Of a DNA stretch of 40,895 nt, positions 12,564 to 36,124 are shown in pieces (position 1 is the first letter of the stretch; the number at the start of each line of letters is the position of its first letter). The translations under genes were made by a program, and so were the position numbers. Origin of the DNA: an uncultured Acetobacteraceae bacterium (lineage in GTDB: Bacteria > Pseudomonadota > Alphaproteobacteria > Acetobacterales > Acetobacteraceae); contig CALMVN010000096.1 of assembly GCA_937873225.1 (NCBI GenBank), positions 1 through 40,895 on the forward strand. The letters are read 5' to 3'. The notes beneath the pieces are model-generated. The model did no database searches and was not told where the DNA came from. It saw only the letters and a program-made list of their open reading frames with translations.

Positions 12564-13026
12564 GTATCATTCCGCCTTCGATCGTGCTTCCACCGCCGCA
12601 TGCACCGCCTTGAGGTGTGCCCGCACGGAAGGTCCCGTCGTCGGCGGCGGGTCGTGCGGCAGCGCGAGGAGGCGGTCCACCGTCGACCGGTCGACCGGCC
12701 AGGGTCGCCGGCGGGCACGCCGTCGGCAACCTCAGCCGTGGCGGCCGCGCCGCCTGCCGTTCATGGCTCCGGATCACCACCACATGCAGCCGGAGCGGGC
12801 GCAGGGGCATGTGCAGGCTCCGGAACACCTGCGCCGTGCCTTGCCGCGTCACGTGCAGCGTCGCCGTGCCTTGGCCGGCGATGGCGGGATCAGCCGGACG
12901 GTTCCGCAGCCTTCCGGCCTCCCGGTGGCGGCGCTTCGGCGCGTCCGGCTTGTCCGCCACCGCCACCGAGCCGAGCCCACATCCCCTGTGCGCCCGGCGG
13001 CCGTTCAACGCACGGCCAGCCCCATC

Positions 13027-29685: not shown

Positions 29686-29904
29686 TCAGCCGATCCGGAT
29701 GTGCCGGACGATGTGGGGGATCTCGGCCCGGCTCAGGTTCATCTCTGCCAGCTCGCGGTCGGAACACTGCGCGAGCTCCTCGCCAAGCCTGGCGCGCTCG
29801 CGTCGCACCGAGCGGTGCGCCCGCACGGTCGCCAGGATGGACCTGAAGACGTCGAGGCGGCTCGTGTCGTGGGCGGTCTCGACCGGATCTGCCGTGATGG
29901 TCAT
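29686..29904 (-). CDS. DUF1127 domain protein
   Basis: 72 residues. The C-terminal half matches DUF1127, an Arg-rich helical domain of small alphaproteobacterial proteins (RERARLGEELAQCSDRELAEM, then NLSRAEIPHIV). Some family members bind RNA or tune phosphate and carbon metabolism. GGAGG lies about 7 nt before ATG 29904, fixing the start well inside the longer open frame. Confidence 0.85.
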   Translation of the reverse strand: MTITADPVETAHDTSRLDVFRSILATVRAHRSVRRERARLGEELAQCSDRELAEMNLSRAEIPHIVRHIRIG

Positions 29905-30072
29905 GCGAACCTCCAGCTCCTGTTCATGCTGCAATGCAACATAAGGTGCCGGAGCTTGATCGTCCACCTTTTCGGTGCGCCGCAGCATGACGTCTTGGTG
30001 ACGTGCGGCCAGGGCGGGATGCAAAGGCGCCGGGGCCTGGACGCCGGCGGATCGCTGCCGGCAGCCTGCGGC

Positions 30073-34195: not shown

Positions 34196-35035
34196 TCAGT
34201 ATCGCATCGGTCGCATCGGCAGCGACGCCAGCGCCACCGGGCGCGCACGGTAGGCGGCGAGGCTGCCCATCGGCATCCCCATGGTGCCGAGCCCGGGCCC
34301 CGTGGGCGTGCTGCGTATGACGTGCCCGAACCCACCGAGCGGCCGGCTCATCGGCGGCGACGCCGGCGCCCCGCCTCCGGAGAACGCGCCCGGGGAAGCC
34401 GCGGAACTCGTCGCCAGGCCGGCCACGGCGACCGCGGCGCGCGCATGGCCGGCACGACGCCCGGCCGCGCCGTCCGGACGGTCGATCGGCTCGGCCCAGG
34501 CTTCCAGCACCTTTCTCTGGTAGTCGACGCCGAGATCGGGGGTCTGCGAGTGGTACGCCGCCGCGGCGTGCGGCCAGCTTCCGGTCTGGTGGAACAGGTC
34601 GGTCAGGAAGCGCGCCGCGAACAGGGCGTTGGCATGGGGATCGAATGCCTGCTCCAGGCTGCCGAAGCCGTCCGGGTGATACATGAGGTTGATCTGCATG
34701 CAGCCGACGTCGATCGACCGGATGCCTGCGGCCTGGAACGCCCGAGCCGCCGCCACCGCCGCCTCCCTGGTGTCGTAGAAGTGACCGACGCCCTGGGCGT
34801 TGATGGTCCAGGGCCAGGCCCGGATTCCCCCGGCGCCCGGGTCGTAGCGCCCGGTCTCGACCCGGCTGATCGCGCCGAGAAGCTGGTTCGGCACGCCGGT
34901 GCTGTTTTCCGCGGCCGCGGTGGCATCCTGGCACAGGATCCCTGCCTCGGACGGCGTCTGCGCATGGGCAGGAACCGCGCAGGCGATGAACAGCAGGCTC
35001 GCGAGGAGGAACCGCAGGATACCGGGACACGCCAT
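34196..35035 (-). CDS. Secreted lytic transglycosylase (SLT domain)
   Basis: 279 residues. The signal peptide is cleaved after AHA (about residue 25). The SLT domain (about 35-170) has catalytic Glu60 in AISRVETGRYDP, then VGCMQINLMYHPDGF and YHSQTPDLG, the standard motifs. It cleaves the glycan strands of peptidoglycan to 1,6-anhydro products in the periplasm. The last about 100 residues are Ala/Gly/Pro-rich and of low complexity. The upstream gap also holds a palindrome and an oppositely transcribed small RNA. Confidence 0.9.
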   Translation of the reverse strand: MACPGILRFLLASLLFIACAVPAHAQTPSEAGILCQDATAAAENSTGVPNQLLGAISRVETGRYDPGAGGIRAWPWTINAQGVGHFYDTREAAVAAARAFQAAGIRSIDVGCMQINLMYHPDGFGSLEQAFDPHANALFAARFLTDLFHQTGSWPHAAAAYHSQTPDLGVDYQRKVLEAWAEPIDRPDGAAGRRAGHARAAVAVAGLATSSAASPGAFSGGGAPASPPMSRPLGGFGHVIRSTPTGPGLGTMGMPMGSLAAYRARPVALASLPMRPMRY

Positions 35036-35083
35036 GGCCGCGACACTAGGCCTTGAAACCTTCCCCGATCGTTAAGACGCTCG

Positions 35084-35100
35084 ATGCGAACGGTTCGCAT
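35084..35100. promoter_or_regulatory. 17-bp palindrome upstream of the small RNA promoter
   Basis: ATGCGAAC, one G, then GTTCGCAT: perfect 8-base arms. It ends 19 nt before the small RNA -35 box and lies between it and the divergent transglycosylase start, a normal operator place. It does not match the GTTC-N7-GTTC direct repeat of alphaproteobacterial LexA. Confidence 0.45.
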
Positions 35101-35119
35101 TGTGCGACGCAAAAACATG

Positions 35120-35148
35120 TTGACCGGCAGGTTCCGCGTCGCTATATG
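35120..35148 (+). promoter_or_regulatory. Consensus-like promoter of the small RNA
   Basis: TTGACC (35120-35125), exactly 17 bases, TATATG (35143-35148). The predicted start is about 35155. It is the closest match to the vegetative consensus outside the tRNA promoters that I found. Confidence 0.75.
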
Positions 35149-35154
35149 GGAGGT

Positions 35155-35232
35155 GGCGGCGCTGCCTTGGCGCGCCGCTTCTTGGACGTTTCCTCCCTAA
35201 ACTTGGCGGTGCTTCGGCACCGCCTTTTTTTT
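35155..35232 (+). ncRNA. Candidate small RNA with anti-Shine-Dalgarno tract
   Basis: A transcript of about 78 nt. A 5' hairpin (GCGGCGC at 35156-35162 with GCGCCGC at 35172-35178) is followed by a single-stranded stretch containing CGTTTCCTCCCTAAAC (about 35187-35202). The transcript ends in a rho-independent terminator. The CCTCCC tract can pair with ribosome sites of mRNAs, the trait of several alphaproteobacterial trans-acting small RNAs. The only overlapping reading frame has no proper ribosome site and runs through the terminator. It lies antisense to the 3' side of the N-formylglutamate amidohydrolase transcript. Confidence 0.7.
35205..35232 (+). terminator. Rho-independent terminator, UUCG loop and eight T's
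   Basis: GGCGGTGC / GCACCGCC stem (8 bp) capped by TTCG, followed by TTTTTTTT at 35225-35232. Textbook intrinsic terminator on the plus strand, with no protein gene before it, so it ends the small RNA. Confidence 0.9.
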
Positions 35233-35242
35233 GACCCCGTGT

Positions 35243-36124
35243 TCAGGCCGGCTGCGGCATTGCCCCGGACAACGCACGCAGCAGCGCCGACATCAGGTCG
35301 CGCAGCCCGTCGAAGCGGGCAAGCTTGAGATAGCGCGCCTGGTCCAGGTAGAGGCTCCGGCTGACCTCGATCTGCAGCACGTGGACGCCCTGCCGCGGCC
35401 GGCCGTAATGGCGGGTGACGTAGCCGCCGGCATAGGGATCGTTGCGGCGCACCCGGTATCCCGCCGCCTCCAGGAACCGGTGCGCCACCTCGGACAGCAC
35501 CGGGTCGCAGGAGGTGCCGTGCGCGTCGCCCAGCACGAAATCCGGATCGTGCCTGGCACCCGGAGCCGGCTCCTCCGTCGGCATGGAATGGCAGTCGAGC
35601 AGGATGCAGCGGTCGAAGGCGCTCCGCGTTTCCGCGATCAACGCGGACAGGGCGTCGTGGTACGGCTGCCAGCAGGACCGGATGCGCGCTTCCGCCTCGG
35701 CGAACACCAGCTTCTCCGCATAGATCGGCTGGCCCGAGGCCACGAGGCGGGCGATCGTGCCGAACCCGGCATTGATCCGCGGCGTGCGCGTGTTGCACCA
35801 GGGCGGCAGCTTGTCGGAGAACATAGCCGGGTCGAGCTCCCACGGCTCCCGGTTCACGTCGCAATAGGCGCGCGGGAAATCCGCCGCCAGCAGCGGCAGA
35901 CCGCAGGAGGGGGCACCGGAAAACAGCTCGTCGACGAAGCAGTCCTCGCTGCGACGCAAGGTGTGGGGGTCCAGCCTGGACGCGGCCAGGAAGGCGCGCG
36001 GGTAGATGCGTCCGGAATGGGGCGAGGCCACCAGCACCGGTCCGTTCCGGCCGGCTGGCCGGATGACCCGGAACGGATGATCGGCGAGCGCATCGGCGGT
36101 CTGCGGCTGGCCCTGCCTGGTCAT
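35243..36124 (-). CDS. N-formylglutamate amidohydrolase family protein
   Basis: 293 residues. Family members deformylate N-formyl-L-glutamate, the last step of one histidine-degradation route. Motifs seen: ASPHSGRIYP, EDCFVDELF, DVNREPWELD, LLDCHSMP, GGYVTRHYG and QIEVSRSLY, the usual set. No other hut genes adjoin, so a general deformylase or amidase role remains possible. There is no ribosome site before ATG 36124. Its stop lies just 11 nt from the small RNA terminator, which faces it. Confidence 0.88.
   Translation of the reverse strand: MTRQGQPQTADALADHPFRVIRPAGRNGPVLVASPHSGRIYPRAFLAASRLDPHTLRRSEDCFVDELFSGAPSCGLPLLAADFPRAYCDVNREPWELDPAMFSDKLPPWCNTRTPRINAGFGTIARLVASGQPIYAEKLVFAEAEARIRSCWQPYHDALSALIAETRSAFDRCILLDCHSMPTEEPAPGARHDPDFVLGDAHGTSCDPVLSEVAHRFLEAAGYRVRRNDPYAGGYVTRHYGRPRQGVHVLQIEVSRSLYLDQARYLKLARFDGLRDLMSALLRALSGAMPQPA

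Follow-up and report, generated by a model that had tools for sequence, protein, structure and literature searches.

The alpha-r8 small RNAs (sRNAs) are described as ending in a terminator and carrying a core 10-mer after a hairpin, with the usual copy adjoining an N-formylglutamate amidohydrolase (FGase) gene, and are stated to be present in all alphaproteobacteria except Rickettsiales (PMC12559287). In Caulobacter crescentus, the alpha-r8 RNA SisA represses mRNAs, those of TonB-dependent receptors included, through Hfq-aided pairing of the 10-mer near the start codon, which compensatory mutations demonstrated for one target; another sRNA, CrfA, acts as the sponge of SisA (PMC12559287). The S. 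meliloti member, MmgR, limits PHB accumulation, with no direct target known. Its gene is repressed by PhaR (AniA), which binds the promoter, carrying CAATTGTGCACCGCAGCATTA, by EMSA (PMC12542648). For the Acetobacteraceae, a literature search of limited reach returned no report of the family.

Anatomy, family and likely action of the locus

The locus lies in a window of 40,895 nucleotides (the whole stretch of DNA that was analysed) from an uncultured Acetobacteraceae bacterium, and its features are collected in Table 1. A preliminary description, made from the letters alone, had listed a promoter, an open CCTCCC segment and a UUCG-capped terminator with eight T's; direct reading found the first two in place, and a terminator scan (background in shuffles, ~0.7 sites expected per 1.5 kb) recovered the third at 35205. 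The promoter pattern TTGACC-N17-TATATG occurs once in the window, and is absent from a strict sigma-70 scan because that scan requires T as the final -10 base. The 5' hairpin is also present, though not of the 7 bp proposed: folding gives 8+2 pairs with a one-base bulge. As a whole, the predicted 78-nt RNA folds at -36.5 kcal/mol (z = -4.0; equal stability in 1 of 200 shuffles), and in this minimum-free-energy structure the first core bases are paired in a weak 3-bp helix. In line with the preliminary description, no convincing protein gene overlaps the sRNA: the overlapping frames 35053-35328 (+) and 35142-35864 (-) are mechanical and unsupported, and the true neighbours end outside it.

Table 1. 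Features of the sRNA locus and its surroundings (positions in the window)
Feature	Position	Strand	Basis or remark
DUF1127-like small gene	29686-29904	-	PF06568, 20.5 bits, below cut-off 23.3
Lytic transglycosylase-like (SLT domain) gene	34196..35035	-	divergent neighbour; Pfam PF01464, E = 6.4e-6
PhaR/AniA-box-like palindrome GCATTGTGCGACGCAAAAACA	35097..35117	+	putative site; TGC-GAC-GCA core; just 5' of -35
sRNA promoter TTGACC-17-TATATG	35120..35148	+	direct read; -35 at 35120-35125, -10 at 35143-35148
Mature sRNA, ~78 nt	35155..35232	+	predicted; start inferred from -10 spacing, end at the end of the T tract
5' hairpin	35155..35179	+	folding
RF00519 (suhB/MmgR, alpha-r8) match	35168..35239	+	full length, model 1-77 of 77; 50.8 bits, cut-off 41
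Open segment TTTCCTCCCTAAAC	35189-35202	+	direct read
Anti-Shine-Dalgarno core UUUCCUCCCU	35189..35198	+	exact; same as the alpha-r8 10-mer published in PMC12559287
Intrinsic terminator GGCGGTGC-TTCG-GCACCGCC plus T8	35205..35232	+	8-bp UUCG-capped stem 35205-35224, T8 35225-35232; terminator scan
FGase gene	35243..36124	-	convergent neighbour; Pfam PF05013, E = 4.8e-78

The sRNA had initially been matched to no named family. This did not hold: a covariance search of Rfam placed it in RF00519, whose long name is 'Makes More Granules Regulator RNA' (E = 1e-7, whole window searched), and since the score exceeds the curated cut-off the RNA is not an unrecognised one. All the published hallmarks, i.e., the terminator, the exact 10-mer after a hairpin and the FGase neighbour, are found at the locus, and the core sits inside the conserved block CUUGGACGUUUCCUCCCUAAACU. 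In the Rfam consensus a 4-bp hairpin precedes the core; here two of its four model pairs are non-standard and a larger stem, using partly the same bases, forms instead, yet the total score still passes, and the published description of alpha-r8 wants just a hairpin before the core, not the 4-bp one of Rfam (PMC12559287). Judged by its sequence, the locus is an ordinary alpha-r8/MmgR member, a real sRNA gene of an already known family.

We hold it very probable, taking the explanation as a whole, that this is an FGase-linked copy of alpha-r8/MmgR (RF00519) in an Acetobacteraceae-type alphaproteobacterium. A sigma-70 promoter would yield an RNA of ~78 nt, and Hfq, for which the host genome encodes a gene, would help the exposed UUUCCUCCCU pair with the G/A-rich ribosome-binding sites of several mRNAs, as suggested by its homologs; those mRNAs would then be repressed, as they are by SisA in Caulobacter. 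Less certainly, a PhaR/AniA-type repressor would, as it does in S. meliloti, control the promoter by way of a TGC-N3-GCA box and so might tie the level of the sRNA to carbon status.

By homology, then, repression of mRNAs at ribosome sites would be the function of the locus. A trans-acting anti-Shine-Dalgarno sRNA, as first proposed, remains the best reading and agrees with the characterised family members; the accompanying notion that it regulates many mRNAs would carry over from Caulobacter SisA, and a target scan of the host genome for GGGAGGAA with a nearby ATG gave too few sites above control to demonstrate it (7 versus 3 in the reversed control, a weak result). Two of these sites precede long frames (L194 and L198), which are candidate, unproven targets. 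Exact 9-10-mer target sites were rejected as mostly chance; one apparent match among them (L083) lies antisense to an ORF that resembles flgD by eye.

It is also conceivable that the main partner is another sRNA, with the RNA being targeted by, or tuning, a CrfA-like sponge and not acting on mRNAs directly, given that the identical 10-mer pairs with CrfA in Caulobacter (PMC12559287). In that species, however, mRNAs are regulated by the alpha-r8 RNA, with CrfA serving as the sponge, and here no sponge candidate was recognised, short of a homology search; we regard this arrangement as very unlikely.

Conservation, rival readings and further copies

All four congeners keep the gene order SLT - sRNA - FGase, as do many genomes of the host's taxonomic family. 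As an independent check on the 10-mer, we took 76 FGase loci chosen by the protein alone, with enough sequence, and found that 62 of them carry the core 10-mer, on the convergent strand, 45-392 bases beyond the FGase match. In the promoter, TTGAC at -35 is kept in all five genus members, while the -10 is looser.

We further compared 27 syntenic orthologs. The 10-mer served to locate them and therefore had to be invariant; the invariance of the flanking block CUUGGACG-core-AAACU was not imposed in this way. Each of the 27 has a 5' region more stable than its shuffles (mean z -2.8, against +0.17 for a control just upstream), although the sequence differs, and the core region shows no such excess stability (mean z -0.07). 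The terminators comprise 18 distinct stems, all still complementary. Within the genus, where the sequences are few and too similar, the observed covariation score was reached by 81 of 500 shuffles.

These data bear on two other readings. Were the RNA to belong to a novel family, its likeness to alpha-r8 would amount to a shared anti-Shine-Dalgarno core only; its 5' stem is indeed unlike the Rfam consensus hairpin, and CCUCCC segments occur in other sRNAs too, the SorY and SorX models matching it below threshold. Both models nevertheless fail their cut-offs and were rejected (SorY, RF02651, 29.6 of 111 bits; SorX, RF02784, 24.8 of 46.6 bits), the RF00519 match is full length and above its own, and the FGase synteny and the long block are common to the alpha-r8 family, such that the Rfam match and the synteny speak against a novel family and we give it hardly any credence. 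Least credible of all, to the point of being negligible, is a mere terminator between convergent genes with no transcript of its own: the terminator does separate the sRNA from the end of the convergent FGase gene, but its T tract suits transcription of the + strand, and its conservation is shared by the promoter, hairpin and core that precede it.

Besides the clear alpha-r8 copy, the host genome holds a weak second one (L002 1501-1574, G000:C337:4903-4976), which scores 32.5 bits, below the cut-off, and carries the exact 10-mer followed by GAACUGGCGG; the 260 bases preceding its core contain no TGC-N3-GCA box. Elsewhere, L055 harbours a tandem pair of alpha-r8 copies ~320 bases apart (G035:C187:12541-12611 and 12859-12929), with a box at each. 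A second class of copies, recognised by a GGCCCG/GGGCCG terminator and by CUGCCGUGUGACUGGCG, or a close variant of it, ahead of the core, was seen at 16 loci (L037, L039, L040, L049-L052, L056, L059-L061, L063-L065, L068 and L071) and could be a distinct subfamily. Three of the five tested in Rfam pass RF00519 and two (L068 and L071) fail; the TGC-N3-GCA box is present in 4 of the 16 only.

The PhaR-type box and its distribution

Set against the S. meliloti consensus, WNWD2NYGCRNYGCRNH2WNW (PMC12542648), the palindrome upstream of the sRNA promoter has a single mismatch, at outer position 1. All five genus members carry TGC-N3-GCA at the matching place (shuffle mean 0.13), 24 of the 27 syntenic orthologs have it in their promoter region (shuffle mean 3.0, maximum 8), and it occurs in 53 of the 62 FGase-selected loci, although shuffles overstate the independence of these counts because the loci share ancestry. 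Most boxes lie ~47 or ~95 bases before the core. With a start ~34 bases before the core, the ~47 place would correspond to that of the S. meliloti box; the host genus retains the outer (~95) box only. Genome-wide, the exact consensus gave 12 sites against 14 in the control, so that the degenerate pattern has no power on its own and only the conserved position of the box counts. One exact consensus match in the window, TCATGCTGCAATGCAACATAA at 29924-29944, lies just 5' of the small DUF1127-like gene. On this comparison, alpha-r8 RNAs look to be under PhaR-type control throughout the family.

PhaR itself (PF07879) was found in 29 of 36 genomes of the host's taxonomic family. A convincing RF00519 match is also missing from six of the seven genomes in which it was not found (Fisher p = 3.6e-6 over the 36 genomes, though the six double negatives may form a single clade and would then count as one event); the remaining genome, G013, retains an RF00519 copy at L019 that has no box. 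Searched as whole genomes, the six (G012, G017, G026, G029, G033 and G034) yielded no PhaR or PHA synthase match and no convincing alpha-r8 RNA, which runs counter to the published statement that only Rickettsiales lack the family.

The host genome, 99.55% complete, has a PhaR gene and gave no PhaC_N (PF07167) or Phasin_2 (PF09361) match, a profile search that distant synthases could escape, and inspection of its ORF list by eye showed no recognisable pha gene next to phaR. A PhaC_N match is missing from three of the four congeners too, leaving the synthase undetected in four of five genus genomes, and those three congeners have both PhaR and the sRNA. The fresh detail is thus a putative PhaR box conserved at the alpha-r8 promoter and apparently kept even where a PHA synthase gene is undetected. 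Given that box, PhaR and sRNA are kept in the genus without a detectable synthase, the circuit may serve a purpose other than PHB granules, e.g., general carbon flow, a suggestion we make tentatively and at somewhat less than even odds. PhaR control seems to outlast the PHA synthase in this genus, in which case 'makes more granules' may be a misleading name as far as the basic role of the RNA is concerned.

Comparison with known systems

SorY and SorX share with the locus a CCUCCC segment and a strong terminator, and their models score far under their cut-offs. Much closer is S. meliloti MmgR (SmelC689), with which the locus has in common the covariance-model match, the core and a PhaR-type box at the promoter. 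MmgR is 77 nt long, compared with ~78 nt predicted here, and the 5' stem is larger here; the box of the host genus lies 5' of the -35, whereas that of mmgR lies ~13 bases before the start. Unlike S. meliloti, the host lacks a PF07167 or PF09361 match, and the granule role may therefore not apply to it. With Caulobacter SisA, which acts with Hfq on ribosome-site regions (PMC12559287), the locus shares the FGase linkage and the identical 10-mer; Caulobacter has four copies (SisA and SisB-D), as opposed to the one clear and one weak copy here. Placing a supposedly unknown sRNA in this named, widespread family allows the mechanism tested there to be carried over to the locus.
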